Origin: an uncultured Clostridia bacterium
Lineage (GTDB): Bacteria > Bacillota > Clostridia > Christensenellales > UBA1242
NCBI GenBank assembly: GCA_947629505.1
Contig: CANRDW010000009.1
Coordinates: forward strand, 1 to 36,435
Length of the DNA stretch: 36,435 nucleotides
Direction: 5' to 3'
A program made the position numbers and the translations under genes. This document shows, piece after piece, positions 7,245 through 36,435 of the stretch (position 1 is its first letter; each line of letters begins with the position of its first letter). The notes beneath the pieces are model-generated. The model was given only the letters and a program-made list of their open reading frames with translations. It made no database searches and had not been told where the DNA came from.

Positions 7245-7253
7245 TGCTAAAAT
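7245..7253 (+). promoter_or_regulatory. extended -10 promoter of truA, leaderless
   Basis: TG-C-TAAAAT at 7245-7253 is an extended -10; no good -35 is visible. The -10 ends 6 bases before ATG 7260, so transcription is expected to begin on the A of the start codon. There is no Shine-Dalgarno. Confidence 0.6.
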
Positions 7254-7259
7254 AATTCC

Positions 7260-7997
7260 ATGAGAAATTTAAAGGTTGTTTTGCGCTATAACGGCGCTCA
7301 TTTTTATGGCTGGCAAAAGCAGAAAAATCTCCGCACTGTGCAGGGAGATTTGGAGGATGCCATTTTTGCCATCACGGGCGAAAAAGTGGAGGTTTTTGGA
7401 AGCGGTCGCACTGACAAGGGTGTGCACGCACTTGGGCAGGTTGCGTCCTTCAATTTAAACACAAATATTCCGCTTAAAAATCTTAAAATTGCGCTGAATG
7501 ACAGGCTGGAAAAAGATGTGCGCGTGATGAATATTTTGCTTGCCAAAGAGGACTTTCATGCCCGCTTTTCAGCCAAAGTCAAAACTTATGAATATGTTGT
7601 GCAAGTGGGCGGAATCAGCGATGCGATAAAAAGTGAACTTATGGCATATTTCCCATATGATGTTGACCTTGACAAAATGCAAAAAGCGGCGAAAATGCTT
7701 GTTGGAAAGCACAAATTTAAAGGCTTTTGTGCTGCAGACACACAAGTGACGAGTTTTGAAAGAGAAATTTTTGATATTTCAATCAAAAAATCTGGCAGAA
7801 TTTACAAATTTTCTGTCACGGGCAATGGATTTTTATACAACATGGTGAGAATTATTGTTGGCACACTTTTGGATGTGGGGCGAGGCGCACTTTCTTTTGA
7901 CGATGTCAAAAAAGCACTCTCTGGCGAAAGAAAACACGCCGGACAAACTATGCCGGCGTGTGGATTGTATTTAAAATCTGTCAAATATTCTGCTTAA
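7260..7997 (+). CDS. truA: tRNA pseudouridine(38-40) synthase
   Basis: Makes pseudouridine at positions 38-40 of the tRNA anticodon arm. 245 aa, the normal size. The catalytic Asp52 lies in GRTDKGVHA, at the same number as in the well-studied enzyme. The N-terminal strand LRYNGAHFYGWQ and the later GNGFLYNMVRIIVGTL are also family signatures. The gene has no Shine-Dalgarno and seems to be leaderless. Its last 17 bases overlap the end of the opposing lipoprotein gene, and its 3' coding region holds that gene's terminator. Confidence 0.95.
   Translation: MRNLKVVLRYNGAHFYGWQKQKNLRTVQGDLEDAIFAITGEKVEVFGSGRTDKGVHALGQVASFNLNTNIPLKNLKIALNDRLEKDVRVMNILLAKEDFHARFSAKVKTYEYVVQVGGISDAIKSELMAYFPYDVDLDKMQKAAKMLVGKHKFKGFCAADTQVTSFEREIFDISIKKSGRIYKFSVTGNGFLYNMVRIIVGTLLDVGRGALSFDDVKKALSGERKHAGQTMPACGLYLKSVKYSA
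7927..7961 (-). terminator. terminator of the lipoprotein gene, inside truA coding sequence
   Basis: Arms 7934-7942 and 7953-7961 (ACACGCCGG / CCGGCGTGT) pair over 9 bp with a 10-base loop. On the minus strand the stem is followed by TTTTCTTT, but there is no T-run on the plus strand, so it acts for the minus-strand gene. It lies wholly within the last codons of truA. Confidence 0.72.
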
Positions 7998-8799
7998 AAT
8001 TGTCAAAGAAGAATGTCAAATAATATTCTTGTTCAGATTTTGTGAAACGAAAGACAATGTGATATTCTTTGTCAACATAATCGACTTTATATGACACACC
8101 ATTTTGTTCAGCTGACCATGTTGAACTTTGTTTATAAGAGAAATTTGCACGGAATGTAAAATTTGAATTGTCAAATCTCATAGTTGCATAAAGTTGCTGT
8201 GGGCGAGTAAGCCAAACAGCATTTTTTGTTTCATTTGTTGAAATTTTTAAAGCACTTGTTGTGTCGCCATCTGTCTGTTGTTTAAAAAGCAAATTTTCTT
8301 GGCTGAAAATCAAATCTGAGCCTTGATATATATCCAAGTTTGTGTTTGGCAAAGATTCTGCATCTTGTGGAAGTTCACCGACAGGGGTTGTGTTTTCTTG
8401 TTTTGAAAGCATAACTCCAGAAAAACGCGTGTAATTTAAATCCGCTTCATCAAAAAGTGCAGTGTAATTGCCCTGTGTGGCAGCCGAACATGTGAAAGAA
8501 AGTGTGCTTTTGACAACTTTTCCGTTTTCAACAGTGTTTGAGATGTTGTAAGTGCCATTGTTTGAAAGAATGAGTGAATTTTGATATATCCAGCCAAGAA
8601 CACTGCTGTTTGTGGTGGAAGCGGTGAGTGTGACATAAGAGCCCTCTGTGTAAGAAGCCGAGCCCATTGTTGAGCCGTGAGAATAAGAACTTGAATATGC
8701 AAGAATGCTGTAGGTGGCAGGAGACTCACTGCACCCAATCAGTGCAAAAGCAGGAAACATTATTAAAAACAAAAACATAAAAACAAGTTTTCTTTTCAT
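7981..8799 (-). CDS. Predicted lipoprotein of unknown function
   Basis: 272 aa, not recognised as a known enzyme. A lipoprotein signal peptide ends at Cys23 (ALIGC), so it is probably tethered to the outer face of the membrane. Residues about 45-70 (SYTEGSYVTLTAST, then SSVLGW) resemble the small beta repeat found in many surface proteins of Gram-positive anaerobes (InlB B-repeat-like). The rest is rich in Ser, Thr, Asn and Tyr, beta-prone, with no catalytic motif I can see. AAAAGGA lies 12 bases before the ATG, a rather long spacing. It has its own sigma-A promoter and a terminator inside the convergent truA. Confidence 0.72.
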   Translation of the reverse strand: MKRKLVFMFLFLIMFPAFALIGCSESPATYSILAYSSSYSHGSTMGSASYTEGSYVTLTASTTNSSVLGWIYQNSLILSNNGTYNISNTVENGKVVKSTLSFTCSAATQGNYTALFDEADLNYTRFSGVMLSKQENTTPVGELPQDAESLPNTNLDIYQGSDLIFSQENLLFKQQTDGDTTSALKISTNETKNAVWLTRPQQLYATMRFDNSNFTFRANFSYKQSSTWSAEQNGVSYKVDYVDKEYHIVFRFTKSEQEYYLTFFFDNFKQNI

Positions 8800-8848
8800 A
8801 TAATATATTATTCCTTTTTAAATCCCTCATGCATATCTAGATAATTAT

Positions 8849-8877
8849 ATTATCTTCATTTTTGCCACGAATGTCAA
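8849..8877 (-). promoter_or_regulatory. sigma-A promoter of the lipoprotein gene
   Basis: Minus strand: TTGACA (8872-8877), 17-base spacer, GATAAT (8849-8854). The leader is about 40 bases. Confidence 0.75.
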
Positions 8878-8894
8878 ATAAAATAAAAAATTTT

Positions 8895-8924
8895 TGAGTA
8901 TTTTTTCTTGGAACGCATATGATA
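8895..8924 (+). promoter_or_regulatory. probable promoter of ytxC
   Basis: TTGAGT (8895-8900), 18-base spacer, TATGAT (8919-8924). The -10 also reads CATATGAT, compatible with the sigma-E form CATANNNT, but I could not fit a matching sigma-E -35 at the right distance. Confidence 0.5.
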
Positions 8925-8943
8925 TTTTTTGTAAGGAGTTTTT

Positions 8944-9702
8944 ATGTGGGAACTTTCCATATGTGTCACATCTAATAATATTGACATTGCGAAATTTATT
9001 TATCAGACACTTAAATTGCATTGTGAAGACTATTGTGCAGTTGTGACATGCTATGAACAGTTTGACAGTTTTTTTATTCTTTGGGCTTGTCCGGTTGAGT
9101 TTAGGCAAAGTGCAAATGTTGTGATTGAAAGTTGTGTAATTAAGGCCGTTTGCAATTTTTATAAAGACAGATTTTTGACGGAAAATTTGCACCTTCCAAT
9201 CCATGAGAACATCTCCATGACGGCATTCAAAAAAGCGCTTATAAATTTTGATAAAGAAACGGATATTTTCCTTATTTCAAAATATTTGAAATTGGAAAAG
9301 AATTTGCATCTCGACAGTTTTTACAATTTCAAACTAAAACCTCTTCGAGATAAGTGGGGCGAACTTGTCATGCTTGCAAATGAAAACGGGGAATATTTGA
9401 CAAGTCAGGAGGCTTTTTTTGACCTTTTGAGATTTTTGATTGACAATTTGGAAGTGGTGGAAGATGAGATAAACGTGTTTGAAGAAGAGGACGGCTATCA
9501 CATCAAAACAAAGTCCGCTCCAACGCTCACAAAAGAGGGGTTAGTGTCAAGTTTGATTGAACTTTGTCCAAAGAAAATAAATTTGTTTTGTCAAAGTGAT
9601 GACAACACGGCAAAGTTTCTTTCAAAGATATTTGAAGAGCGTGTTAATGTTTGTTACAACAAAAACTTGGAAAAATTGGATAAATTTTCAGTTTTGAAGT
9701 GA
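8944..9702 (+). CDS. ytxC: YtxC-like sporulation-associated protein
   Basis: 252 aa, soluble, no signal peptide. The call rests on size, overall character and position: in Bacillus ytxC lies directly upstream of thrS, as here. The central part (HENISMTAFKKALINFD, then EYLTSQEAFFDLLRFLIDNLEVV) fits the family, whose biochemical role is not known. A clear TAAGGAG lies 5 bases before the ATG. The 3' end is followed at once by the separate promoter and T-box leader of thrS. Confidence 0.68.
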   Translation: MWELSICVTSNNIDIAKFIYQTLKLHCEDYCAVVTCYEQFDSFFILWACPVEFRQSANVVIESCVIKAVCNFYKDRFLTENLHLPIHENISMTAFKKALINFDKETDIFLISKYLKLEKNLHLDSFYNFKLKPLRDKWGELVMLANENGEYLTSQEAFFDLLRFLIDNLEVVEDEINVFEEEDGYHIKTKSAPTLTKEGLVSSLIELCPKKINLFCQSDDNTAKFLSKIFEERVNVCYNKNLEKLDKFSVLK

Positions 9703-9719
9703 AATTTTGATAAAAAATC

Positions 9720-9748
9720 TTGACTTTTCTCATCTTTTAGTTTAAAAT
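9720..9748 (+). promoter_or_regulatory. sigma-A promoter of thrS
   Basis: TTGACT (9720-9725), 17-base spacer, TAAAAT (9743-9748). Start expected near 9755, ahead of the T-box leader. Confidence 0.8.
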
Positions 9749-9754
9749 GTATGT

Positions 9755-9956
9755 GTATTTCAGTAAAAGACAAGTAGCATTCAACAAGGCGCACAGAGAA
9801 GAGTTGGTTGGTGAAAAACTTTGGCGGCGTTGAAAGGTGAAACCACTTTTGCGTTTAAAAATACACAAATTAAGTGGCACTAGATTAGTGCAATTAAGGT
9901 GGAACCGCGGTTTTCTAATCGTCCTTAAATTCATTTGAATTTTGGGCGATTTTTTT
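9755..9956 (+). promoter_or_regulatory. Threonine T-box riboswitch leader
   Basis: Tandem structure typical of a tRNA-sensing leader. Stem I has an AGTA-type base (near 9773), the distal GAGAAGAGTTGG / GGTTGGTG region, and a specifier loop reading GTGAA-ACC-A with the Thr codon ACC at 9842-9844. The T-box itself, AAGGTGGAACCGCGG, is at 9896-9910 and contains the bases that pair with the uncharged tRNA end. A terminator hairpin follows. Uncharged tRNA-Thr should stabilise the antiterminator and switch thrS on. Confidence 0.95.
9917..9956 (+). terminator. T-box regulated terminator
   Basis: The 5' arm from 9917 (AATCGTCC) pairs with GGGCGATT ending at 9951; an inner AAATTC / GAATTT pairing lies between. 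A T-run to 9956 follows. It is mutually exclusive with the antiterminator formed by the T-box. Confidence 0.88.
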
Positions 9957-9976
9957 GTCCAATTAAGGAGGAAAGT

Positions 9977-11740
9977 ATGAACGAAAAAAATGAAAAATTG
10001 CATATGGCAAGACACAGCCTTGCACACATTTTGGCAAAGGCACTTATGGAACTTTATCCACAGACAAAACTCACAATTGGCCCAGCCATTGATGACGGCT
10101 TTTATTATGATGTTGACCTAGACAAAAATTTGACACCAGACGACTATGAAGCCATTGAAAAGAAGATGAAAGAAATCTTAAACAGAGGCGAGGCGTTTAC
10201 AAGAAAAGTTGTTTCAAAGGCTGAGGCGCTTAAACTTTTCAAAGACAATCCATATAAATGCGAAATCATAAATGAAATTGAAGATGGACAAGAAATTTCT
10301 GTCTATTACACAGGCGATGACTTTTTCGACCTTTGCAGCGGCCCACACGTTGAAAGTGCAAAAAATTTGCAAAATTATGCGTTTAAAATCTATGCAGTCA
10401 ACGGCGCTTATTGGCGTGGGAGCGAGAAAAACAAGATGCTTCAAAGAATCTATGTTTATGCTTTCTCAGATAAGAAGCAGTTAAATGAGCATATCACCAT
10501 GCTTGAAGAGGCAAGAAAGCGTGACCACAACAAACTTGGCAGAGAACTTGAACTTTTCACAACTGTGGACTACATCGGACAGGGCCTGCCTATTTTGCTT
10601 CCAAAGGGCGCTAAAATCATTCAGATTATGCAGCGTTTTGTTGAAGATGAAGAAGAAAAACGCGGCTGGAAACTGACAAAAACTCCATTTATGGCAAAGA
10701 GTGATTTGTATAAAATCTCTGGGCATTGGGATCACTACAAAGATGGCATGTTTGTGCTTGGCGATGAAAGCAAAGATAAAGAAGTTTTGGCTCTTCGCCC
10801 TATGACTTGCCCATTCCAATATCAAGCATATCTCAACAAAGCGCGCTCTTACAAAGATTTGCCACTTCGCTATGATGAAACATCCACATTGTTTAGAAAT
10901 GAAGCAAGCGGCGAGATGCACGGGCTTATTCGCGTGCGACAATTCACAATCTCAGAGGGGCATTTGATGTGCACACCAGAGCAGTTGGAACAGGAATTCA
11001 AGTCTTGCCTTGAACTTGCTATTTTCATGCTGAAAACTTTGGGGCTTTATGAAGATGCATCATATCGTTTCTCTCAGTGGGACCCTAACGACCGCGCAAA
11101 ATACATCGGCACTAAAGAGCAGTGGGATGAGGCACAGGGCACAATGGAGAAAATCCTTAAACACCTTGAAATCCCTTATGAAATCGGCGTTGGAGAAGCC
11201 GCTTTCTATGGGCCTAAACTTGACATTCAAATCAAAAACGTGTTTGGCAAAGAGGACACTCTCATCACCATTCAAATCGACCAAATGCTTGCTGAAAAAT
11301 TTGGCATGGAATACACAGATAAAGACGGCTCTAAAAAACGCCCTTACATCATCCATCGCACAAGCATCGGCTGTTATGAACGCACTCTTGCATATCTCAT
11401 TGAAAAATATGCGGGGGCTTTTCCACTTTGGCTTGCACCTGTTCAAGTTAAGGTTTTGACGCTGACTGAAAGAAACAACGATTACGCAGCACTTGTCAAC
11501 AAAACTCTTTTAGATGCGGGCATCAGAACAGAACTTGACGACCGCAACGAAAAAGTTGGCTATAAAATCCGCGAGGCAATGTCCATGAAAATCCCATATC
11601 TTATTATTGTGGGGGATGAAGAAGAAAAAACACAAACAATTTCCATTCGTGGACGCGGCTTTGAAAACAAGAGCGGGCTTAAACTTGACGACTTTCTTGC
11701 AAGGCTTCAAGATGAAATTAAAACAAAAAAATTAAACTAA
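9977..11740 (+). CDS. thrS: Threonyl-tRNA synthetase lacking the N-terminal TGS domain
   Basis: Charges tRNA-Thr. 587 aa against about 640 for the full form: the protein starts at once with the editing domain, whose HxxxH (His13, His17) and Cys120/His124 (DLCSGPH) are intact. The class II core follows, with the zinc Cys in MTCPFQYQAY and HGLIRVRQF. In motif 3, SIGCYERT has Cys where the E. coli enzyme has the zinc ligand His, a known variant. The C-terminal anticodon domain begins at LAPVQVKV. The start is ATG 9977, 6 bases after AAGGAGG; the only earlier in-frame start lies inside the T-box terminator, so the missing TGS domain is real. Controlled by the T-box. Confidence 0.95.
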   Translation: MNEKNEKLHMARHSLAHILAKALMELYPQTKLTIGPAIDDGFYYDVDLDKNLTPDDYEAIEKKMKEILNRGEAFTRKVVSKAEALKLFKDNPYKCEIINEIEDGQEISVYYTGDDFFDLCSGPHVESAKNLQNYAFKIYAVNGAYWRGSEKNKMLQRIYVYAFSDKKQLNEHITMLEEARKRDHNKLGRELELFTTVDYIGQGLPILLPKGAKIIQIMQRFVEDEEEKRGWKLTKTPFMAKSDLYKISGHWDHYKDGMFVLGDESKDKEVLALRPMTCPFQYQAYLNKARSYKDLPLRYDETSTLFRNEASGEMHGLIRVRQFTISEGHLMCTPEQLEQEFKSCLELAIFMLKTLGLYEDASYRFSQWDPNDRAKYIGTKEQWDEAQGTMEKILKHLEIPYEIGVGEAAFYGPKLDIQIKNVFGKEDTLITIQIDQMLAEKFGMEYTDKDGSKKRPYIIHRTSIGCYERTLAYLIEKYAGAFPLWLAPVQVKVLTLTERNNDYAALVNKTLLDAGIRTELDDRNEKVGYKIREAMSMKIPYLIIVGDEEEKTQTISIRGRGFENKSGLKLDDFLARLQDEIKTKKLN

Positions 11741-12686: not shown

Positions 12687-13466
12687 TTACAGAGTTATCG
12701 TCTTTTTGTATTTTGGAGTGATTATTTTCATGTTTTTGCACTCTTTTTTCATCATTTTTGTGAATTTTGTTGTTTTTATTGTGTTTGTAATCGGCGGAAA
12801 GGCGTTGTCAAAGTGATCCAAAATGACAACCTTTGGATTGAGTGACATCACAATTTTTTTGGAGTATTTTTCCATATTGCTTCTGCCTTGGAAAGGCCAA
12901 ACAAGATAATCCACTTCTCTTGGAAGTTTTGCACGTTCATCAAAACCTGCCGAGCCAAAGATGAGGATTGTTTTGCCCTCAGTTTTTATTTCAAAGGCAA
13001 CAATATCTCCACCCATTAAAAATTGTTTGTGAGTTTTTAAAATTTTCAAAGCCTTTTTAAATTGGAATTTGAAAAGAATTCTAAATGCAGTGCGCAAAAC
13101 AAGCCAAACATCGTTTTTGACATGTTTTGTGCGATGGACAAAAATCTCTGCATTTTTTGTTTTTATGTAATCATGTGGGCATAAAATTTCCACGCGTTTT
13201 TCAACGTCAACACCTTGCGTTTCAAGCCTTAAATATGCTGTTGGCGTGCCATAAAACTGCGCTTTGGAAATCTTTAAAATTTCTGGGATGTCACACAAGT
13301 GGTCAAAATGAGGGTGCGTGTTGAAAATACAGTCCACTTCGCTGAACTCTTTTATATCTGGCTTTTTCAGTTTGTCATTCATCCTAAAAAACGGGTCAAA
13401 CAACAATTTTTCACCATTTATTTCCAAAAGCACTGTTGCCGTGCCAAACCATGTGAAATTGATCAT
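12687..13466 (-). CDS. Metallo-beta-lactamase fold hydrolase (UlaG-like group)
   Basis: 259 aa. The metal motif is THPHFDH with His51, His53, Asp55 and His56, after the usual N-terminal strands (WFGTATVLLEINGEKLLFDPFF). Later HRTKHVKND and GSAGFDE supply the further metal-site region. This group includes lactonases and other small hydrolases; the substrate cannot be told from sequence. No signal peptide. There is no Shine-Dalgarno; the promoter predicts a transcript starting exactly at the ATG. Confidence 0.82.
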   Translation of the reverse strand: MINFTWFGTATVLLEINGEKLLFDPFFRMNDKLKKPDIKEFSEVDCIFNTHPHFDHLCDIPEILKISKAQFYGTPTAYLRLETQGVDVEKRVEILCPHDYIKTKNAEIFVHRTKHVKNDVWLVLRTAFRILFKFQFKKALKILKTHKQFLMGGDIVAFEIKTEGKTILIFGSAGFDERAKLPREVDYLVWPFQGRSNMEKYSKKIVMSLNPKVVILDHFDNAFPPITNTIKTTKFTKMMKKECKNMKIITPKYKKTITL

Positions 13467-13472: not shown

Positions 13473-13500
13473 ATTATAGCAGATAGAATTTATTTTTCAA
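13473..13500 (-). promoter_or_regulatory. promoter of the MBL-fold gene, leaderless
   Basis: Minus strand: TTGAAA (13495-13500), 16-base spacer, perfect TATAAT (13473-13478) with extended TGC. The -10 ends 6 bases before the ATG at 13466. Confidence 0.78.
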
Positions 13501-13698: not shown

Positions 13699-13717
13699 GC
13701 AAAATCTGCATTTTGCC
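13698..13717. other. perfect inverted repeat at the 3' end of the PBP gene
   Basis: GGCAAAAT (13698-13705) and ATTTTGCC (13710-13717), 8 bp with a CTGC loop, starting at the PBP stop codon. No T-run follows on either strand, so it may be a stabilising 3' stem or a weak terminator working with the REP-like element next to it. Confidence 0.5.
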
Positions 13718-15936
13718 TAAATATACCACTTTTCCTTTGGCTTTTGTTGTTGGCGCTTTAACTGAAAGGTTTTTGTGGCGGATTGATTTGAATTTATTAA
13801 ATATGATGCGACAATTTTCAGGTCACATTCCTTTTCTTTAAACGCAAATCTCAATGTAAGGGGTTGGCTTTTTTCTGTGATTGTTTGAGTTTTGACATCA
13901 TCTTTGAAAATTTCATATTTTAAGTGTCTGTGTGGATTCAAATTCACAACAATTTGATTGTTTTCGACAACTGCGCTTGCGTCAACAGTTGGGCTTTCTG
14001 TGAAGTTTGTTGAAATATCTTGTGGCAGATTGAATCGCGAAAAAAGTGCGCTTTTCTTGTAGCGGTCGGGTGCATATGGATTTGCAAGCACAAGCCTGTG
14101 ATTTTCCTCCAACTCCAAAGTGTCAATGTCCACATTTGTGACAGATGACGGCACGGAAAAAGTTATGCTATCATAACTTTGTTTTTGAACATATGAGCGC
14201 ACAGCCTCAGTTGGCTGATTTCCGCCGGCAATTGAAAGAGGTGTGTTTTTCAAATTTCCAAGCCACACTCCAATCGTTTCTTGCGGGGTGTATGAGATGT
14301 TGTAGGCGTCTGTGTTGCCGTTTGAATTTTTCTTTCCAACAGTGCCTGTTTTTGAGGCAATTTCTGTGTTTTTTATATCAGCAAGTTTTCGTGCCGTGCC
14401 ACTTTTTGCAGTTTCCTCCAGGATGTTTGTCATAAGATAGGCGGCATCCTCTCGCAAAACCATCTTGTTTTGTGGCTTGTGAACATACACAAGTTTGTTG
14501 TTGCCGTCAACTATGTATTGAATGAAAGTTGACGGGGCAAACTGTCCACCTTTGGCAAAAGTTGTGTAGGCGGTGGCGAGGTCTTTCAAATTTGTGCCAT
14601 AACTCATGCCACCAAGCGCAATCGCATAACTATCGTCTGTTTCGTCAAAATTTATGCCCATTTTTTCGGCATAGGCCTTGCCGGTGTCAATCCCGATGTA
14701 TGAAAGCACCTTAATTGCAGGAATATTTATGGAATTTTTCACTGCGTCTGTCACGGAAACATAGCCGCTGTATTTTTTATTGACGTTGTTTGGACTGTAG
14801 CCACCAATCGTCACCTTTTCGTCTAAAATTTGCGTGTCGGGGCTGATTGCACACTCGTTTAGGGCGGGTGCATACACCAAAATTGGCTTTATGCATGATG
14901 CGGGCTGGCGTTTAATGTCCATAAGTTTAAAGTTGCTTTTGCCGTGATATGCCAAAACTCCGCCCGTTTGATTGTCAATCACAATCCCAGCATTGTCGGC
15001 ATTTTCGACATCTATTTTAAACAAACTTTCTTTCAAATCGGCTTGTTTTTCTTCGTCAAGATAGGTGTGAAGTTTATAGCCGCCAACCGCAAGTTGTTTT
15101 GCCGGGATATTCAAAATTTTTGCCGCTTCGTCAAGGGCTGCTTCGGCGTAGGTGTTGAGTTTTTCGCTGTGAGAATTTATGTCAAGATTGATTGGCTGTT
15201 TTTCGATTTCAAGTTTCTCTTCAATTGAAATATAGCCGTCCTTTTGCATCTCGCTTAAAACAAGATTTCGCCTTTTAAGACAATTATCATAATTTGTGAT
15301 TGGACTGTAGCGCGTGGGAGATTTGATAAGCCCGGCAAGTGTGCAACTTTCATTCAAATTCAAATCCTTTGCGTCCTTGTTGAAATAATAGTGGCTGGCG
15401 TTTTCAATGCCATAACAGTTGTTGCCAAAAAAGATTATGTTTAAATAACTTTCTAATATCTCGTCCTTAGAAAAAGCCTTTTCAAGTTTCTTTGTGAGTG
15501 CAACTTCTTTCAACTTTCTTTCAAGCGTTTTTTCGCCGCTTAGGTGGGTGTTTTTGATGAGCTGTTGGCTTATTGTGGATGCGCCTTCTTTGAGTTTTCC
15601 CGCCTTGATGTTGTTTATCATTGCGCCAATCATGCGCTTTTTGTTTATGCCATTGTGATTATAGAATTCTTTGTCCTCAATGCTTATAAAAGCGTTTTTT
15701 GTATGTGGCTGCAATTCTTCGATTTTGCACGACTCAAAAAGCGTTTCTTCGTTTATTGGTTTGTTTTCTCTGTCGAAAATGTCAATGCTTAAATTTGCAC
15801 TTGCAAGCGCCTCTGCATTCAGCGGCAGCGACTGAAACTTCAAATAATTTATTGTCAAAAAACTTGCGCACAAGCAAAAGGCGAAAGTTGTCAGCAAGAA
15901 TATTGAAATTAGACTTATTTTGACAAATTTCTTCAT
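13717..15936 (-). CDS. Class A penicillin-binding protein (PBP1A type)
   Basis: Bifunctional peptidoglycan glycosyltransferase/transpeptidase, 739 aa, anchored by one N-terminal span (about 6-30). GT51 domain: SIEDKEFYNHNG, then GASTISQQLIKN, then LNIIFFGNNCYGIENA. Transpeptidase: the active-site SxxK in PASCIKP, SxN in KNSIN, and KTG in SKTGTVG. The C-terminal 100 or so residues are beta-rich and extracytoplasmic. The frame is open for another 115 codons upstream, but those overlap the divergent miaB gene and look non-coding. ATG 15936 directly precedes the membrane anchor (MKKFVKISL). No Shine-Dalgarno; a -10-like CATAAT sits at the leaderless distance. Confidence 0.93.
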   Translation of the reverse strand: MKKFVKISLISIFLLTTFAFCLCASFLTINYLKFQSLPLNAEALASANLSIDIFDRENKPINEETLFESCKIEELQPHTKNAFISIEDKEFYNHNGINKKRMIGAMINNIKAGKLKEGASTISQQLIKNTHLSGEKTLERKLKEVALTKKLEKAFSKDEILESYLNIIFFGNNCYGIENASHYYFNKDAKDLNLNESCTLAGLIKSPTRYSPITNYDNCLKRRNLVLSEMQKDGYISIEEKLEIEKQPINLDINSHSEKLNTYAEAALDEAAKILNIPAKQLAVGGYKLHTYLDEEKQADLKESLFKIDVENADNAGIVIDNQTGGVLAYHGKSNFKLMDIKRQPASCIKPILVYAPALNECAISPDTQILDEKVTIGGYSPNNVNKKYSGYVSVTDAVKNSINIPAIKVLSYIGIDTGKAYAEKMGINFDETDDSYAIALGGMSYGTNLKDLATAYTTFAKGGQFAPSTFIQYIVDGNNKLVYVHKPQNKMVLREDAAYLMTNILEETAKSGTARKLADIKNTEIASKTGTVGKKNSNGNTDAYNISYTPQETIGVWLGNLKNTPLSIAGGNQPTEAVRSYVQKQSYDSITFSVPSSVTNVDIDTLELEENHRLVLANPYAPDRYKKSALFSRFNLPQDISTNFTESPTVDASAVVENNQIVVNLNPHRHLKYEIFKDDVKTQTITEKSQPLTLRFAFKEKECDLKIVASYLINSNQSATKTFQLKRQQQKPKEKWYI

Positions 15937-15942
15937 TTTTCT

Positions 15943-15948
15943 ATTATG
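15943..15948 (-). promoter_or_regulatory. -10 element of the PBP gene, leaderless spacing
   Basis: CATAAT on the minus strand, 5 of 6 to consensus, ending 6 bases before ATG 15936. No convincing -35 at 16-18 bases. Confidence 0.45.
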
Positions 15949-15979
15949 TGACAAATTTCGCTTAAAATTCGCAAATTTC

Positions 15980-16008
15980 TTGCCAAATTTAGATATTTTT
16001 TGTATAAT
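15980..16008 (+). promoter_or_regulatory. sigma-A promoter of miaB-mutS-mutL operon, leaderless
   Basis: TTGCCA (15980-15985), 17-base spacer, perfect TATAAT (16003-16008). Counting 7 bases from the -10 puts +1 on the A of ATG 16015. No Shine-Dalgarno is present. Confidence 0.82.
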
Positions 16009-16014
16009 ATGCGT

Positions 16015-17136
16015 ATGAAATATTTTATCGTGACCTATGGATGTCAAATGAATGTGCATGAAAGCGAGAAAATCGCTGCGATTTGCGAAAAGATGGGCTA
16101 CACTCTTGCGGACAAGCGAGAAGATGCCGACCTTATTATTTTCAACACCTGTGCAGTGCGTGAGGGCGCAGAGGACAGAGTCTTTGGAAATGTTGGGGCT
16201 CTCAAAAAACTGAAAAAGCAAAAGCCAGGCACAATAATCGCTGTTTGTGGGTGCAGCACGCAAAAAGAAGAAACAGCACAAAAAATTTACAAGACTTTTC
16301 CGTTTGTGGACATTGTGATTGGAACTTTCAATGTGTCAAATTTTGAACATTACATAAACGCAGTCAAATATGGCAGACAAATGGAAATTTTGAAAGAGGG
16401 CGAGATTGACGAAGTTCATCCTTACAAGCGCACAAGCGGAGAAAATGCGTGGGTGAATATAATGTATGGCTGCAACAATTTTTGCACCTACTGCATTGTG
16501 CCATATGTGCGCGGAAGAGAGAAAAGCCGCAGCGAAGAAAACATCTTAAATGAAATTAAGGGCATTTTGAGTGAGAAAAAATACAAAAAAATCACTCTTT
16601 TGGGGCAGAATGTAAATTCTTATGGCAAAGACCTGACTCCGCCCGTTTCTTTCTCAAAACTTTTGAAAGATATCTGTGCGCTTGAGGGGGATTTTAAACT
16701 CACATTTATGACTTCTCATCCAAAAGATTTGACGGACGATGTGATTGACACAATAGCAAGTGAGGACAAAATTTTAAAAGAAATTCATCTGCCGGCGCAA
16801 AGCGGGAACAATCGCATTTTGAAACTTATGAACAGGCGTTACACACGTGAACACTATCTTTCAATAATAAACAAAATTCGCGCCAAAATTCCGGATGCGA
16901 AGATTACAACCGACCTTATTGTGGGCTTTCCAACCGAAACAGAAGAAGAATTTCAAGACACTCTTTCGCTTGTCAAAGAGGTGAGATACAATGGCATCTT
17001 TGCCTTTATGTTTTCGCCGCGAGAAGGAACGGTTGCAAGCAAAATGGACGGGCAGATTGACGAAGAAGTGAAACGCAGGCGCGTGAATGAACTTTTAAAT
17101 CTTGAAAAACAAATTCAAAAGGAGGACAAAAAATGA
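16015..17136 (+). CDS. miaB: tRNA-2-methylthio-N6-dimethylallyladenosine synthase, TRAM domain missing
   Basis: Radical-SAM methylthiotransferase that adds a methylthio group to i6A37 of tRNA. 373 aa against about 440 for typical MiaB. N-terminal domain cysteines Cys10 (YGCQMN), Cys46 (FNTCAVRE) and Cys80 (CGCS) hold one cluster; the radical-SAM CxxxCxxC is Cys153, Cys157, Cys160. The protein ends just after the radical-SAM domain (NELLNLEKQIQKEDKK), so the RNA-binding TRAM domain is absent. An upstream in-frame TTG at 16000 overlaps the promoter and is rejected. The stop overlaps mutS (ATGA). miaA, which makes the substrate, lies three genes downstream. Confidence 0.93.
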   Translation: MKYFIVTYGCQMNVHESEKIAAICEKMGYTLADKREDADLIIFNTCAVREGAEDRVFGNVGALKKLKKQKPGTIIAVCGCSTQKEETAQKIYKTFPFVDIVIGTFNVSNFEHYINAVKYGRQMEILKEGEIDEVHPYKRTSGENAWVNIMYGCNNFCTYCIVPYVRGREKSRSEENILNEIKGILSEKKYKKITLLGQNVNSYGKDLTPPVSFSKLLKDICALEGDFKLTFMTSHPKDLTDDVIDTIASEDKILKEIHLPAQSGNNRILKLMNRRYTREHYLSIINKIRAKIPDAKITTDLIVGFPTETEEEFQDTLSLVKEVRYNGIFAFMFSPREGTVASKMDGQIDEEVKRRRVNELLNLEKQIQKEDKK

Positions 17137-25734: not shown

Positions 25735-25764
25735 TTGCGTTTAGGCACTTTGTTTTGATATAAT
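25735..25764 (+). promoter_or_regulatory. sigma-A promoter of scpAB, leaderless
   Basis: TTGCGT (25735-25740), 18-base spacer ending in extended TGA, perfect TATAAT (25759-25764). The -10 ends 6 bases before ATG 25771; no Shine-Dalgarno. Confidence 0.78.
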
Positions 25765-25770: not shown

Positions 25771-26529
25771 ATGGACGAGCAAGAAAAACAAGAGGACATG
25801 CTTTTGTCAAGTGATAGTTATCGTTTTAAGTTGGACAATTTTGAGGGCCCACTTGATTTATTGTTGCACCTTATTAAAGATGCAAAACTTGACATTGCAA
25901 CCGTCAAACTTGCCGACATCACCGAGCAATATCTTGAATATATGCAAGACATCAAAAATGTGGACATGGACAAGGCGAGCGAGTTTATCACCGTTGCGGC
26001 AACCCTTATTGAAATCAAATCCAAGAGCGTTCTGCCGGTTGAACAAGAAGAAGAGCCTGAAGAGGACGATGATGAGGCGCTGCTACTCCGACGACTGAAG
26101 GAATATGAACTCTTCAAAGAGGCGGGCAAGGACTTGAAAGAGATTGAAGATGTAAACAAACTTTATCGCGCTCCGGGGAAAGAAACTGAAAAAGTTAAAA
26201 TCGTGATGAAAGACATGGTTTTAGACCAACTTCTTGACGCCTTTGCAAAACTTATGACGCGTGAAGAACTTAAAAAAGCGGTTGAAAATGAACAGCCAAA
26301 AAAGATTATGAAAGACCGCTTCACTGTTGCAGAAAAGATTATTTCAATTCGAAATTTTGCCAAAGAGAGAAAGCGTTTTGACTTTGAAGAACTTTTTGAT
26401 GACGACATGACAAAAAGCGAACTTATAAACACTTTCTTGGCGCTTTTGGAACTTTTGAAATTGCAGACAATCAAGGTTATTCAAAGCGAAACATTTTCAA
26501 ATATTGTCATCACGGCAAACGAGGTGTAA
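25771..26529 (+). CDS. scpA: Segregation and condensation protein A (kleisin)
   Basis: Kleisin of the SMC condensin complex that compacts and separates chromosomes. 252 aa, normal size. The N-terminus holds the hallmark FEGPLDLLLHLIKDAKLDI, then YLEYMQ and EFITVAATLIEIKSKSVLP. The acidic linker (about 90-105) and the C-terminal winged helix follow. It ends one base before scpB; the gene is predicted to be leaderless. Confidence 0.95.
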   Translation: MDEQEKQEDMLLSSDSYRFKLDNFEGPLDLLLHLIKDAKLDIATVKLADITEQYLEYMQDIKNVDMDKASEFITVAATLIEIKSKSVLPVEQEEEPEEDDDEALLLRRLKEYELFKEAGKDLKEIEDVNKLYRAPGKETEKVKIVMKDMVLDQLLDAFAKLMTREELKKAVENEQPKKIMKDRFTVAEKIISIRNFAKERKRFDFEELFDDDMTKSELINTFLALLELLKLQTIKVIQSETFSNIVITANEV

Positions 26530-30210: not shown

Positions 30211-30239
30211 TTGACAAAAGCGGCTCTTTTTTTTAAAAT
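30211..30239 (+). promoter_or_regulatory. sigma-A promoter of the TM2 gene (and mnmA), leaderless
   Basis: Perfect TTGACA (30211-30216), 17-base spacer, TAAAAT (30234-30239). +1 falls on the A of ATG 30246. Confidence 0.85.
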
Positions 30240-30245: not shown

Positions 30246-30890
30246 ATGAAAAACAAACAAAAGCCGAAGTTAAGAGACAGAATAAGAAAATTTGCAAACA
30301 CAAAAAAATGTCCTAGATGTGGTACAAGGTGTATGCAAAGTCAAACGCGTTGCCCAGAATGCGACCTTATTTTTTCACGCCTTGAGTTTGCTTCAAATAA
30401 AGCGGCAAAAAAACAACTTAGAAAATTTAATCGTGACTATGTTGTTTACACAAAGGATTTGCCAAAAGATGTAAGTTTCATCAAACTTTTATTATTGACA
30501 ATTTTTTGCGGGCTTTTTGGGGCACAATATTATTATGTTGGCAAATATGAAAAGGGCATTTTGATGACTGTGTCTTTTGTTTATCTTGTGCTTTGCACAA
30601 TCTTCAATGCTTATATTGTTGAATATATGCAATTTTTATATTTCCCGATTGGGCTTGCTGGAATAGCGTGGATGGTGAGCATTGTGTATGTTGGGAGCAG
30701 AAAATTTAAAGTGCCAATTTTGATTGATATGCCAACTGCTGAAAGTGTTGAAAGCGAAACAAAAAAAGAGAAAAATAATAAAAAAACAACACAAAACAGT
30801 GAAAAAAATGTTAAAAAAGTTGAAAAAACGGAAAAAGTCGAAGAAATTATAGAAAAAATTGAAAAAGCACAACAAAAAGAGGACAAATAA
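30246..30890 (+). CDS. Zinc-ribbon and TM2-domain membrane protein
   Basis: 214 aa. Cys22/Cys25 and Cys36/Cys39 (CPRCG ... CPECD) form a zinc ribbon. A TM2-type domain follows (about 78-150), with LLLLTIFCGLFGAQYYYVGK and two more hydrophobic stretches. The last 45 residues are almost all Lys, Glu, Asn and Thr, a flexible charged tail. Function is unknown. Its stop is immediately followed by the ATG of mnmA, so the two are one transcript, with the ribosome site of mnmA (GAGG) in its tail. No Shine-Dalgarno of its own. Confidence 0.75.
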   Translation: MKNKQKPKLRDRIRKFANTKKCPRCGTRCMQSQTRCPECDLIFSRLEFASNKAAKKQLRKFNRDYVVYTKDLPKDVSFIKLLLLTIFCGLFGAQYYYVGKYEKGILMTVSFVYLVLCTIFNAYIVEYMQFLYFPIGLAGIAWMVSIVYVGSRKFKVPILIDMPTAESVESETKKEKNNKKTTQNSEKNVKKVEKTEKVEEIIEKIEKAQQKEDK

Positions 30891-32036: not shown

Positions 32037-32042
32037 TAAAAT
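32037..32042 (+). promoter_or_regulatory. -10 element of spoIIGA-sigE, leaderless spacing
   Basis: TAAAAT ends 6 bases before ATG 32049. No -35 match at 16-18 bases, as might be expected for a promoter needing an activator; spoIIG is Spo0A-activated in Bacillus. Partial Spo0A-box matches (TGTCG core on the minus strand near 31968, GGTCGAA at 32051) are weak. Confidence 0.5.
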
Positions 32043-32048: not shown

Positions 32049-32831
32049 ATGGTCGAATTTGTGCTGATTGAAAACTTTTTCATAAATTTGATTGTGCTTA
32101 AAACCAGCGCTTTGCTTTTAAAAGAAAAGGGCAAGTTTTATCTTTTGTCTGCCTTTTTCTGCGGGTGTCTTGCCGTTGCAATCAACACTTTAAAACCCTC
32201 CAATCTTGGGCAGTTTGTTTCAAATGTTGGCATGGCAGTGATTGCAATTTGCATCACTTTCAAGTTTAAAACTTTGAAGAAATTTTGTGTGATTTGCGGC
32301 TGTTATATTCTTTCAAATTTGCTTTATGGGGGAGTCTGCTTTTTTCTCAACGGCTTTTTTGGAATTGGAAATACTCTTGTTGTGCTTTTGTGTGTTGTTG
32401 CGATTTATTTTGTTGTCAAAATTGTGTTTAAAAGGTTTTCAAAAAAGCGCGCTATCGACAACTTCTGTTTTGATGTTGAGATAACAAGTGGCAGCCACAG
32501 TGGCAAGTGGCGGGCATTTTTGGACAGCGGCAATTTTTTAAACGACCCCGTCACGGACACGCCCGTGCATTTGGTGAACTTTAAAGTGTTTTCTAAACTG
32601 TTTGAAATCGACGAAAAGAAACTTCTTGACGGGCGGCATCTGCAAAATTTGAAGTGTGCGCATTATATCAATATCAACACACTTTCAGGGCGAGATAAGA
32701 TTTTAGTGTTTCAGGTTGACAAGATTGTGGCAAAGGGGCAGACTTTTGAAAATGCCACACTTGGATTATGTTTGAAGCATTTTGATTATGCTTTCAACGC
32801 AGATGTCATTTTAAACAACAGTTTCGCATAA
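32049..32831 (+). CDS. spoIIGA: Sigma-E processing peptidase SpoIIGA
   Basis: Membrane aspartic protease that removes the pro-peptide of sigma-E in the mother cell. 260 aa: five or so N-terminal spans (to about residue 125), then the protease domain with Asp159 in FLDSGNFLNDP, the catalytic DSGN. Eleven bases separate it from sigE, the normal gene pair. No Shine-Dalgarno; the -10 position predicts a leaderless start. Confidence 0.93.
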   Translation: MVEFVLIENFFINLIVLKTSALLLKEKGKFYLLSAFFCGCLAVAINTLKPSNLGQFVSNVGMAVIAICITFKFKTLKKFCVICGCYILSNLLYGGVCFFLNGFFGIGNTLVVLLCVVAIYFVVKIVFKRFSKKRAIDNFCFDVEITSGSHSGKWRAFLDSGNFLNDPVTDTPVHLVNFKVFSKLFEIDEKKLLDGRHLQNLKCAHYININTLSGRDKILVFQVDKIVAKGQTFENATLGLCLKHFDYAFNADVILNNSFA

Positions 32832-33564: not shown

Positions 33565-33586
33565 TGTTTTTTGATGATTTTTTGCT

Positions 33587-33622: not shown

Positions 33623-33641
33623 GTCAAATTAAACTTTTGTG

Positions 33642-33671
33642 GCATACTTTTCAAAGTTGTTTGGCAAAATA
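33642..33671 (+). promoter_or_regulatory. sigma-F/sigma-G type promoter of sigG
   Basis: GCATA (33642-33646), 15-base spacer, TGGCAAAATA (33662-33671). The -35 is a perfect GYATA and the -10 fits GGNNANANTN except for the first G. In Bacillus sigG is switched on by sigma-F in the forespore. Confidence 0.75.
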
Positions 33672-33691
33672 CCTTTAAAAAGGAGTTTTTT

Positions 33692-34465
33692 ATGTCAAAC
33701 AAAGTTGTCATTTCAGGGGTGAACACATCCACCTTGCCAAAACTTAAAAATGATGAAATTATGGAACTTTTGAAACAGGTTAAGGCGGGGGATGAGTTTG
33801 CAAGAGATAAGTTTGTTGTTGCAAATTTAAGGCTTGTGCTTTCAGTTGTGCAGCGCTTTTCTGGGCATTGCGACAAGGCTGACGATATGTTTCAAGTTGG
33901 CTGTGTTGGACTTTTAAAAGCGATTGACAATTTTGATGAAACGCTGAATGTCAGATTTTCAACCTATGCCGTGCCAATGATTGTTGGCGAAATTCGAAGA
34001 TATATTCGCGACAACAACTGCCTTAGGGTGAGCCGCTCTATTCGAGATGTTGCCTACAAGGCACTGCAGGCGAAAGAGCAATATATCAAGAAAAACAACT
34101 GTGAACCAACTTTGGAAGAAATTGCTAAAATGATTGAACTGCCTGTCAGCGAAGTGACTTTTGCGCTTGATGCGATAAGCGAAACGCTTTCTTTAAACGA
34201 GCCAATTTACAATGACGGCAACGAAACAATCAGGCTTATGGACCAAATTGCCGATGAGAAAAATTGTGATGAAATGTTTGTTGAAAAACTTTCGCTTTCA
34301 GATGCAATCAAAAACCTTTCACCACGTGAAAAAGAAATTCTTTTGATGCGCTATTATGTTGGCAAAACGCAAATGGAAGTGAGCGAAGAGGTTGGCATTT
34401 CTCAAGCGCAAGTTTCAAGGCTTGAAAAGAATGCACTGAAAACAATCAAAAATTTTATTGAATAA
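33692..34465 (+). CDS. sigG: RNA polymerase sporulation sigma factor sigma-G
   Basis: Late forespore sigma factor. 257 aa. N-terminus NKVVISGVNTSTLPKLKN is specific to sigma-G. Region 2: NLRLVLSVVQRFSGHCDKADDMFQVGCVGLLKAIDNFD, then FSTYAVPMIVGEIRRYIRDNN; region 4: KTQMEVSEEVGISQAQVSRLEK. AAAAAGGAG lies 6 bases before the ATG. It has its own promoter and an upstream terminator, so it is uncoupled from sigE. Confidence 0.97.
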   Translation: MSNKVVISGVNTSTLPKLKNDEIMELLKQVKAGDEFARDKFVVANLRLVLSVVQRFSGHCDKADDMFQVGCVGLLKAIDNFDETLNVRFSTYAVPMIVGEIRRYIRDNNCLRVSRSIRDVAYKALQAKEQYIKKNNCEPTLEEIAKMIELPVSEVTFALDAISETLSLNEPIYNDGNETIRLMDQIADEKNCDEMFVEKLSLSDAIKNLSPREKEILLMRYYVGKTQMEVSEEVGISQAQVSRLEKNALKTIKNFIE

Positions 34466-34538
34466 AAAAAGACTTAAAAGGTCAAAAAATAAGCGCCCAA
34501 CGAACTTTTGTCAAAACAAACAAATTAAACGATTGCGC

Positions 34539-34565
34539 AAAACCGCCAAGCACTGCTGCGGTTTT
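34539..34565. terminator. probable terminator after sigG
   Basis: AAAACCGC (34539-34546) and GCGGTTTT (34558-34565), 8 bp perfect, loop of 11. It could serve sigG, 73 bases upstream. Apart from this and the next hairpin I see nothing coding between sigG and the tRNA. Confidence 0.6.
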
Positions 34566-34617
34566 CATTCGGCGCAACAAAGAGAAAAAACAAGCGAAAA
34601 GCGAGGGTTTTTTGTGC

Positions 34618-34648
34618 AAAAAAAACCGCACCAAAAGCGCAGTTTTTT
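34618..34648 (-). terminator. terminator of tRNA-Leu
   Basis: On the minus strand ACTGCGC pairs with GTGCGGT using two G-U pairs, flanked by A's and followed by eight T. In plus-strand RNA the two wobble positions become C-A mismatches, so the hairpin is directional. Confidence 0.7.
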
Positions 34649-34652
34649 CTCG

Positions 34653-34734
34653 TGGTGCGGATGGGGAGGGTCGAACTCCCACGGTTTCCCACTTGCCCCT
34701 TAAACAAGCGCGTCTGCCATTCCGCCACATCCGC
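34653..34734 (-). tRNA. tRNA-Leu (anticodon AAG)
   Basis: Class II tRNA on the minus strand: acceptor GCGGATG/CATCCGC, D-arm GCG-GAATGGCAGA-CGC, anticodon stem CTTGT/GCAAG with loop TTAAGGG, 11-base variable region, T-arm GGGAG-TTCGACC-CTCCC, discriminator A and encoded CCA. The loop puts AAG at 34-36, unusual for bacteria because A34 normally needs deamination to inosine. Confidence 0.93.
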
Positions 34735-34744
34735 ATGTGATTAC

Positions 34745-34773
34745 ATTTTATACTATTCTTGCGACAAAGTCAA
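34745..34773 (-). promoter_or_regulatory. sigma-A promoter of tRNA-Leu
   Basis: Minus strand: TTGACT (34768-34773), 17-base spacer, TAAAAT (34745-34750). Start expected about 4 bases upstream of the tRNA. Confidence 0.82.
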
Positions 34774-34811
34774 CAATTTTTGCGAAAAAAACAAAATTTC
34801 TTCTTTTTGAA

Positions 34812-34817
34812 TATACT
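34812..34817 (+). promoter_or_regulatory. -10 element of the GNAT gene
   Basis: TATACT ends 5 bases before ATG 34823. No clear -35 and no Shine-Dalgarno; probably leaderless. Confidence 0.45.
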
Positions 34818-34822
34818 TTAAC

Positions 34823-35266
34823 ATGAAAAACGAAGAGATTATCATAAAACGCGCAAAGCAAGAAGATTTGGACTTTATCTTGCACGCCAACAAAGAAATT
34901 GACAAGGCATCTTATATTAAAAGCAGTGCGCTGGTTTACAACATACAATGTGACCTATTTGATAAAAAATGTACGGTTTGTTTAATTGCAAAAAAGGCGG
35001 GCGAATATGCAGGCATGATTTTGTTTTCAAAAGTCTATTGGGCGGACAGAGGCGAGGGGATTTATGTTTCGCAGGTTTTTGTTGAAGAAAAGTTCCGTGG
35101 GCAGAAAGTTATGAAAAAACTTTTCAAAAAAGCGCTTTATCATTTCAAAGACACAAAATTTGCAACTTGTCTTGTCAGCGACAAAAATTCTCGCATGCTT
35201 GAGTGCGTAAAGAAATTTGAAAGAGAAGATATGCTTTCCTTTGTGATAAACAGAATTGATTTTTAA
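34823..35266 (+). CDS. GNAT family N-acetyltransferase
   Basis: 147 aa, a single GNAT domain. The acetyl-CoA site is motif A at about 82-105 (VSQVFVEEKFRGQKVMKKLF), with the RGQKVM turn in place of the classical RxxGxG/A. The central strand AGMILFSKVY and the C-terminal part fit the fold. The substrate cannot be inferred. There is no Shine-Dalgarno, and the -10 box is 5 bases from the ATG. Confidence 0.8.
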   Translation: MKNEEIIIKRAKQEDLDFILHANKEIDKASYIKSSALVYNIQCDLFDKKCTVCLIAKKAGEYAGMILFSKVYWADRGEGIYVSQVFVEEKFRGQKVMKKLFKKALYHFKDTKFATCLVSDKNSRMLECVKKFEREDMLSFVINRIDF

Positions 35267-35295
35267 TATTATATTATTTATCAATGAAAAAATTG

Positions 35296-35325
35296 TTGAT
35301 TTTTTTGTGCCGAGCGTGATATAAT
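35296..35325 (+). promoter_or_regulatory. sigma-A promoter of the subtilase gene, leaderless
   Basis: TTGATT (35296-35301), 18-base spacer ending in extended TGA, perfect TATAAT (35320-35325), ending 6 bases before ATG 35332. Confidence 0.78.
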
Positions 35326-35331
35326 ATCTAT

Positions 35332-36435
35332 ATGAAAACAGCAACAAAAATTTCTTCAATAATTGCAGTTTGCATCTTGTCGGTGCTTGTTTTGTTTGCT
35401 GGTTTTTGCATGCCAACAAAGTCTGCTTTTGCAAGTGGCGATGTTGACGAATATGCGACATTTGCTGCGCAAAGAGAAAAGATGCTTGAATATGACAATC
35501 CAAACGAGGATGTCACTTTAAATAAACAAGACTATTTTGTCGAGGATGGAAAGATATTTTTAAGCCAAAAAGCGATTGGCTTGTATGGGCTTTCAAAAGG
35601 CAAATTTAAAGACGAATTTTATGAATGTGAAGATGAAAATGTTGTTGTTGAAAAAGATTGTGTGAAAATTAAAAACACATCACAAATAAATCGACTTATC
35701 GTTGTTTCAGACAACAAAATTGACAGCCATGGTGCTGTGTTGCAAGCTGATATCAACAACTTCCACTTTTTCCAATATGGCAATGAAAAACAGGCCGCGG
35801 ATGCTTTTGAATTTTACAAAAACAGCGGGCTGAGTGTTTCTTATGATTATGTTATTTCCACATCGTCAAATGATGACACAGAAGAGGCAGCTTTGTTTAC
35901 ATACAAAACCCCTTGGGCAGACAGAGCGATTGGATTTTCGCAATACACTGAAAACATGCTTAAAATTCATCCAAAAGACACTTTGAAAGACGTTGTTGTT
36001 GCCGTTTTGGACACGGGAATTTATGCAGAGCATTATCAGTTTGTCAACAGAATATATTCTGGCGGCAGAAACTTCAGTGGTGAGGGAGCATTAAGCGATG
36101 TTTCAGACGGCGGCAGTGGGCATGGAACTCACGTTTCTGGAATTATTGCAAATTCCGCACCTTTTGAAAATATAAAAATTCTTCCACTCAAGGTTTTAAG
36201 GTCATCTGACGGCAAGGGCAATGTTGGAATGATTATTGACGCCATTGAATATCTTGTTGAAAATTTGAATGATCCAAAAGTTAGGCTTTTAAACCTCAGT
36301 GTTGGAATAACAATGACCGATCCAAATGTTTCAGTGCAAAATGAATATCTTATGAATGCCATAAGACTTGCATATAATCACAACATCATTCCTGTTGTTG
36401 CAGCAGGAAATGAACGAGTGAACACAAAATACGCA
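35332..36435 (+). CDS. Secreted subtilisin-like serine protease (S8), 3' end beyond the window
   Basis: 368 codons visible. A signal peptide (about 1-35, cleavage near AFA-SG) shows export. A pro-region of about 180 residues follows, with no named motif but possibly an inhibitor-type propeptide. The catalytic domain has Asp227 in AVLDTGI, His264 in GHGTHVSG and the oxyanion Asn360 in AAGNE. The catalytic Ser lies past base 36435. Leaderless promoter; no Shine-Dalgarno. Possible roles include nutrition or spore and cell-surface protein processing. Confidence 0.9.
   Translation, partial: MKTATKISSIIAVCILSVLVLFAGFCMPTKSAFASGDVDEYATFAAQREKMLEYDNPNEDVTLNKQDYFVEDGKIFLSQKAIGLYGLSKGKFKDEFYECEDENVVVEKDCVKIKNTSQINRLIVVSDNKIDSHGAVLQADINNFHFFQYGNEKQAADAFEFYKNSGLSVSYDYVISTSSNDDTEEAALFTYKTPWADRAIGFSQYTENMLKIHPKDTLKDVVVAVLDTGIYAEHYQFVNRIYSGGRNFSGEGALSDVSDGGSGHGTHVSGIIANSAPFENIKILPLKVLRSSDGKGNVGMIIDAIEYLVENLNDPKVRLLNLSVGITMTDPNVSVQNEYLMNAIRLAYNHNIIPVVAAGNERVNTKYA

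Follow-up and report, generated by a model that had tools for sequence, protein, structure and literature searches.

Can a clostridial gene be transcribed from the first base of its own start codon, and its mRNA translated with no leader? The question is raised by a 36,435-nucleotide stretch of DNA from an uncultured Clostridia bacterium of the family UBA1242 (Christensenellales; assembly GCA_947629505.1, contig CANRDW010000009.1; this whole stretch is referred to as the window), in which a -10-like hexamer ends exactly 6 bases before the ATG of eight genes. Clostridia are usually treated as led by Shine-Dalgarno (SD) sequences, and two studies of transcription start sites (TSS) covering four strains give 2-4% leaderless. 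Our analysis indicates, with a probability of about 0.92, that the family runs two initiation modes and that roughly one tenth of its genes are abutted by their promoters and would give leaderless transcripts beginning 5'-AUG. The case rests on promoter placement, absence of SD sequences, restriction to AUG, initiator context and conservation. By these sequence statistics the genes carry the marks of leaderless genes, namely a -10 box placed for a +1 on the start codon, no SD and a strong preference for AUG.

All eight sites were checked letter for letter, and each hexamer, 6-base spacer and ATG stands where a first, sequence-only reading of the window had placed it. The hexamer is TATAAT upstream of four predicted leaderless genes: a gene for an MBL-fold (metallo-beta-lactamase superfamily) hydrolase (12687..13466, reverse strand, ATG at 13466; TG-extended box at 13473..13478), miaB (16015..17136; box at 16003..16008; the gene name comes from the earlier reading and not from a family search), scpA, encoding segregation and condensation protein A (25771..26529, leaderless here; TG-extended box at 25759..25764), and a gene for a subtilase-family peptidase that extends past the window end (35332..36435; TG-extended box at 35320..35325). 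It is TAAAAT at truA, encoding tRNA pseudouridine(38-40) synthase (7260..7997; TG-extended box at 7248..7253), at the TM2 gene (30246..30890; box at 30234..30239; named in the earlier reading, with no Pfam or NCBIfam match), both predicted leaderless, and at spoIIGA, encoding the sigma-E processing peptidase (32049..32831, probably leaderless; box at 32037..32042). The eighth hexamer, CATAAT at 15943..15948 on the reverse strand, precedes a gene for a class A penicillin-binding protein of the PBP1A family (PBP; 13717..15936, reverse strand, ATG at 15936, predicted leaderless); features without a stated strand lie on the forward strand. The first reading had also described near-perfect -35 boxes at five genes. 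This holds for the TM2 gene (TTGACA at 30211..30216, 17 bases before the -10), miaB (TTGCCA at 15980..15985, 17 bases) and the MBL-fold gene (TTGAAA, 16 bases), assigned by eye, but the TTGCGT of scpA and the TTGATT of the subtilase gene look weak; both of these genes have a TG-extended -10. No recognisable sigma-A -35 was found by eye upstream of spoIIGA. Two further cases proposed with 5-base spacers are weak: a GNAT acetyltransferase gene (34823..35266) does have TATACT 5 bases before its ATG, but its membership is doubtful given an SD-led homologue, and a 46-aa open reading frame has no homologue in the loci searched. A TGCCGAA word upstream of spoIIGA, noticed by eye, resembles a Spo0A box.

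The 6-base spacing is in excess throughout the window's genome, a draft of 991 kb in 43 contigs that is 85.8% complete. TATAAT-N6-ATG occurs 37 times in it, compared with 4 occurrences of the backward pattern and 15 with a 10-base spacer; the latter served as a second control because the backward pattern is imperfect (ATG backwards is another word). Spacers of 0-25 bases together gave 362 matches, or about 13 per spacer excluding the 6-base one. Since raw pattern counts are noisy in lower-GC genomes, gene-level histograms were used for a family sample of 1.39 Mb and 1060 genes, made up of the window, 15 stretches of its own genome and stretches of seven same-family genomes, these last picked independently of promoter matches. 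A near-consensus -10 was defined by at least five of six matches with T1, A2 and T6 fixed, and an SD by five or more bases. This analysis revealed such a box at 6 bases in 88 of the 853 SD-less ATG starts, compared with a mean of 9.4 at the other spacings (0-59 bases, minus 5-7; Poisson P ~1.7e-53); it lay at 5 bases in 5 cases and at 7 bases, the largest other spacing, in 21. Without the window's genome the count was 63 of 640 and the mean at other spacings 7.3. Individual genomes gave 25/213 (the window's own), 17/174 (G028), 9/60 (G052), 14/144 (G073), 11/116 (G374) and 10/86 (G376). SD-led ATGs had the box at 6 bases in 2 of 609 cases, with a broad hump at 15-23 bases; GTG and TTG starts without an SD were flat with no 6-base peak (9/1319), and so were out-of-frame ATGs in the window's genome (6/549). 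The distance histogram split by SD thus has the 6-base peak that the sequence-only reading predicted, confined in these samples to SD-less ATG starts, and the near-exclusion of SD and 6-base box supports its proposal of two initiation modes in one genome. Boxes with five or six matches exceeded background at 6 bases (102, 58 + 44, versus 16.3, 14.4 + 1.9) and those with three or four showed no excess, so that strong -10s define the class. For the window, with about 30 genes, the family background of ~9.4 per spacing per 853 SD-less ATGs predicts ~0.33 matches; finding seven sites, PBP excluded, gives a Poisson P of 6e-8, a rough value that assumes one SD-less ATG per gene.

The excess at 6 and 7 bases together comes to about 100 of the 1060 genes. 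Genes were called with a simple gene-finding script, covering 69-88% of the family samples, and classified by leaderless and SD scores with hand-set weights, which placed 106 as leaderless, 634 as SD-led, 153 as ambiguous and 167 as neither. Leaderless genes made up 78 of 686 that stand first in a transcription unit, and a further 28 were classed as operon-internal. The script replaced a first gene finder, based on codon usage, that found few genes in some genomes; the replacement misses some window genes, spoIIGA among them. The 6-base peak is present with either (28/317 and 26/383 in-frame ATG candidates in the window's genome).

We also examined the architecture of the 88 aligned sites, which had been selected by hexamer and SD absence alone. 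A -35 signal is present 17 bases upstream of the -10 (T75 T64 G42 at -35 to -33), together with a TG extension at -15/-14 (T in 64, G in 51), and the base at -1 is a pyrimidine in 85 of 88 (97%), compared with 60% of the 609 SD starts and 52% of 733 other SD-less starts. Among 181 SD-led start-and-box pairs, with the ATG 15-25 bases away, a pyrimidine-purine step was commonest at bases 6/7 after the -10 (41%, versus 7-27% at the other steps examined), so base 7 is apparently preferred by the polymerase. In the 6-base arrangement this position is taken by the A of the ATG. We therefore propose that in this family of small-genome (~0.7-1.4 Mb) gut Clostridia both modes operate in parallel. At about one tenth of the genes a strong vegetative promoter, TTGNNN-N17-TATAAT and often TG-extended, would abut the gene; the seventh base after the -10 would be +1 and also the A of AUG, and the pyrimidine before the ATG together with that A would form the transcription initiator. 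A transcript so started begins 5'-AUG, and by analogy with leaderless mRNAs elsewhere ribosomes, probably 70S, would engage it at the 5' end with no SD pairing. Most other genes, operon-internal ones included, would be SD-led, often with very short leaders (~9-17 bases); the exact 5' ends, and any regulatory meaning, are inferred here.

The promoters may be real and the start lie 1-4 bases off the A of the ATG, in which case leaders would be ultra-short or 5' ends would be slightly truncated. The 21 of 853 boxes at 7 bases form some excess, and orthologues of miaB, mnmE and PBP have boxes at 7-9 bases, as such an offset would produce. The peak is nevertheless essentially one base wide, the -1 pyrimidine is nearly invariant at the 6-base sites, and SD-led promoters put the initiator step at the same offset, so we regard a displaced start as unlikely. 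SD pairing is available to the other class: most genes are SD-led, and the anti-SD is intact in G007, a genome outside the window's family and the sole one of 31 with a full-length 16S match. In SD-led genes of the family the -10 lies mostly 15-23 bases before the ATG, from which leaders of ~9-17 bases would follow. In five outgroup genomes the boxes lay mostly 24-38 bases away, farther than in the family's SD-led genes, in small numbers.

To what extent the arrangement persists was examined in orthologues. Reciprocal-best comparison of the sampled family genomes gave 352 pairs, of which, by the hand-set scores, 24 were leaderless in both members, 15 leaderless in one and SD-led in the other, and 165 SD-led in both; the remaining 148 involved a call that was ambiguous or without signal, and in 20 of these one member was leaderless. 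Proteins of the leaderless-in-both pairs are 36-82% identical, with the box 5-7 bases before the ATG and different surrounding bases. A survey of 39 family genomes from 38 genera under a looser rule (four of six matches, 5-8 bases) covered 30 loci per gene for truA and mnmE, the window's own included. truA was leaderless in 16 (15 at exactly 6 bases), SD-led in 8 and other in 6; mnmE was leaderless in 16 (5-8 bases; exactly 6 in 8 of these), SD-led in 7 and other in 7. Because both genes were chosen as leaderless in the window's genome, these fractions measure persistence and not a genome-wide rate. The control metK, SD-led in that genome, was leaderless in 0 and SD-led in 16 of 17 loci classifiable out of 20 under the same rule; it is an imperfect SD control, as it may be led by a riboswitch. 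Upstream of miaB, inspection by eye found the 6-base spacing also in L001, L008, L009, L100, L020 and L051, and an SD in L004-L007, L010 and L011. The TM2 gene has the same spacing in a 36%-identical homologue (L100), and a 34%-identical subtilase homologue (L190) has TATACT-N6-ATG. Start and leader vary among scpA relatives. For the MBL-fold gene no homologue was found in the loci searched, and it contributes no conservation evidence.

These comparisons bear on whether the start codons were misassigned, the real start being a downstream SD-led codon and the promoter-near ATG lying within an ordinary leader. Start predictions in draft genomes are frequently wrong, and for TM2 the gene finder favoured a downstream codon. 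The peak, however, appears for in-frame ATGs and for neither out-of-frame ATGs nor GTG or TTG, SD-led orthologues begin at the aligned codon (nine aligned-start pairs), and an in-frame SD start within the next 30 codons is no commoner in leaderless genes (8 of 106) than in SD genes (54 of 634). We consider misassignment very improbable.

The PBP gene is a special case. The first reading had grouped it with the others; the 6-base spacing stands, but its box was dropped as a sigma-A -10, since a forespore-type promoter precedes the gene in 18 of 26 homologues whose start lies in the locus. The window's copy reads GAATT-N17-CATAATA, 6 bases before the ATG, with GAATT at 15966..15970 on the reverse strand. 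Forespore sigma factors (sigma-G/F type) recognise a GNATA-like -35, a spacer of ~17 bases and a CATNNTA -10. The putative PBP promoter fits this consensus, and the gene is probably expressed in the forespore. In those homologues the promoter matches fully or nearly so and lies 6-9 bases from the start, and distant relatives carry forms such as GAATA-N17-CATACTA. The leaderless arrangement would then extend beyond promoters of the vegetative sigma factor. Of six matches that a strict scan (R-N-A-T-D, 16-18 bases, CATAMTA) gave upstream of ATGs in the family sample, only the one at the window's PBP lay within 10 bases; the order sample gave one match, at 18 bases, and the outgroup none. PBP is therefore one conserved gene and not a demonstrated regulon. 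One PBP homologue with an adjacent forespore-type box (L006) apparently has a GTG start codon, in contrast to the vegetative class, which shows AUG only. PBP and miaB are transcribed divergently with 78 bases between them (15936-16015), their promoters, one of forespore type and one of sigma-A type, lying back to back and each adjoining its own gene.

The distribution of the spacing was then compared across the order, sampled with no completeness limit, and the rest of the phylum, represented by genomes at least 90% complete. Among 121 order genomes, 27 had at least 15 TATAAT-N6-ATG matches and at least twice the 10-base count; none of the 248 others did. With a 1.5-fold threshold the figures were 37 and 1, respectively. 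Where counts sufficed (107 order genomes and 202 others), the log2 ratios had medians of +0.21 and -0.54 (P ~2e-27, uncorrected for kinship). Families of the order differ strongly: f15, f6, f3 and f17 are high, the window's own (f1) is intermediate (1.21), and f4, f13 and f27 show no enrichment in these counts. At gene level, five order genomes gave 10/211 at 6 bases, and five genomes from elsewhere in the phylum had no peak (2/261). A separate comparison used MiaB loci, 67 of 80 of which were sorted into sets by record title and the look of the MiaB start, the other 13 being omitted; by MiaB, uncultured Clostridia genomes and Candidatus Caccovivens faecavium, whose genus NCBI places in Clostridia, Eubacteriales incertae sedis, are nearest to the window's genome in a named collection. 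The nearer Clostridia loci gave 12/311 at 6 bases, all 12 with a -1 pyrimidine, and there was no 6-base peak in Clostridium-type (0/108) or Ruminococcaceae/Oscillospiraceae-type (0/232) loci. The enriched genomes include G064, G118 and G080, with 58-61% GC in the sampled stretches, so A+T richness is not the cause.

The same genomes count against the TATAAT-like element being an A+T-rich translation signal of the kind found in Bacteroidetes and not a promoter. Its fixed distance from the start codon would suit such a signal, but the element is accompanied by a TG extension and, at 17 bases, by a -35, and is replaced at the PBP gene by forespore-type boxes, and we consider this explanation most improbable. 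Chance matches selected by eye are hardly conceivable: TATAAT-like words are common at 37-39% GC, yet both Poisson values, the near-absence of the spacing from the five outgroup genomes and a distance histogram that does peak at 6 bases speak against them.

Several observations do weigh against two-mode initiation as proposed here. Two family genomes have no gene-level peak (G110, 1/34; G092, 1/26), and in the lower-GC genomes G052, G073, G110 and G092 the raw genome-wide counts are about equal at 6 and 10 bases. An order genome, G016, has 0/28 at gene level, despite raw counts of 37 versus 13; 15 of the 248 genomes from the rest of the phylum have slightly more matches at 6 than at 10 bases; and the named family loci L001-L012 give only 5/120 at 6 bases versus 0-6 at other spacings. 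The homologues of GNAT (L190) and spoIIGA (L107) are SD-led. The miaB box lies at 8 bases in L003 and at 9 in L002, and some orthologues, with sites at 7-9 bases, would have leaders of 1-3 bases, so that a leader of exactly zero is not strict. The fraction of leaderless genes is approximate, given the simple scripts and hand-set weights, and the rate for the window's own genome is inflated, as its stretches were picked with knowledge of the TATAAT-N6-ATG matches.

The sequence-only reading had further suggested that the two modes set separate expression classes. The modes are supported; for separate classes a codon-usage proxy gave no consistent difference. In G028, leaderless genes had a smaller fraction of C-ending codons, a crude measure of expression (P = 0.002); the window's genome, G073 and G374 showed no significant difference. 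An NCBIfam search of 30 leaderless-side genes (27 of 31 listed, plus the window's PBP, spoIIGA and GNAT) and of 10 of 30 drawn SD-led first genes placed genes for RNA modification on the leaderless side: truA, mnmE, a TadA-like gene and tlyA. tRNA modification enzymes are usually filed in COG category J. We considered whether leaderlessness is a heritable, gene-by-gene trait, toggled as some dozen bases are gained or lost between the start and a conserved -10, and spanning vegetative and forespore promoters. It would then mark RNA modification, DNA repair, segregation and a spore PBP as a functional class that can still be translated under limiting 30S/SD initiation, for example in sporulation or under antibiotic stress. 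We hold this broader proposal to be doubtful; it is made less probable by the strict scan, in which the PBP promoter was the only adjacent one of forespore type.

A search of 31 genomes gave no indication of a specialised translation apparatus; IF3 was present in all of them. S1-family matches were also present in 31/31, none above the curated cut-off. In most genomes belonging to the window's genus the S1-type protein (G000:C5:38899-39879 and relatives) has a frame of ~340-410 aa, as against ~560-815 aa in other sampled families of the order; an IspH-S1 fusion may be involved. As a separate observation, metK (S-adenosylmethionine synthetase) was matched in 19 of 39 family genomes, 15 above the cut-off, and in 13 of 32 of good quality, which suggests that S-adenosylmethionine synthesis has been lost or replaced in part of this small-genome family.

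Leaderless initiation is itself a mechanism already known elsewhere. Zheng et al. (2011, PMC3160421) surveyed 209 Firmicutes genomes and reported leaderless genes in 56, on average 4.2% of genes, concentrated in Lactobacillales and Mycoplasma. The genes described here are like theirs in having TAtAAT ~12 bases upstream of the start, TG in low-GC genomes, no SD, and minority status in an otherwise SD-using genome; they differ in that the carriers belong to an order of Clostridia. COG A (RNA processing and modification) was over-represented and COG J (translation) under-represented in that study, so truA, mnmE, the TadA-like gene and tlyA have no clear parallel there. In Deinococcus-Thermus a -10 adjoining the start codon has been shown by experiment to drive leaderless mRNA for ~30% of ORFs (PMC12340547), compared with about a tenth of genes here, as judged from sequence; the main text of that paper has no occurrence of Firmicutes, Bacillota or Clostridi, and its figure S7 covers common phyla. 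Mycobacterium likewise combines two initiation modes within one genome (PMC3898074, PMC4633059), but leaderless GUG is efficient in Mycobacterium smegmatis (PMC9031893), in contrast to the ATG-only signal of this family; 70S loading at a 5' AUG is described in the same review (PMC9031893). Within Clostridia, the same class by NCBI taxonomy, TSS maps of three strains give 2-3% leaderless transcripts and a 5' untranslated region peak at 32 bases (PMC9045289), compared with the ~9-17-base SD leaders predicted here. In C. phytofermentans promoters likewise have TATAAT with TG, and TTGACA; 4% of intergenic sense TSS are leaderless, generally with a ribosome-binding site and another upstream TSS (PMC5171806). 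Our searches, limited to open-licence papers, listed none that was seen to report leaderless genes for this lineage, and in them we found no description of the AUG-only restriction, the conserved forespore-type case or the switching of mode between orthologues.

These results have a practical side. Gene finders tuned to SD sequences can misplace leaderless starts, which concerns annotation, and because the transcription start would be readable from the genome, a direct test should be cheap once a member of the family is cultured. In a class usually treated as SD-led, a family with apparently leaderless starts at about one gene in ten, and with orthologues that switch mode, is a natural experiment on the origin and purpose of leaderless initiation.

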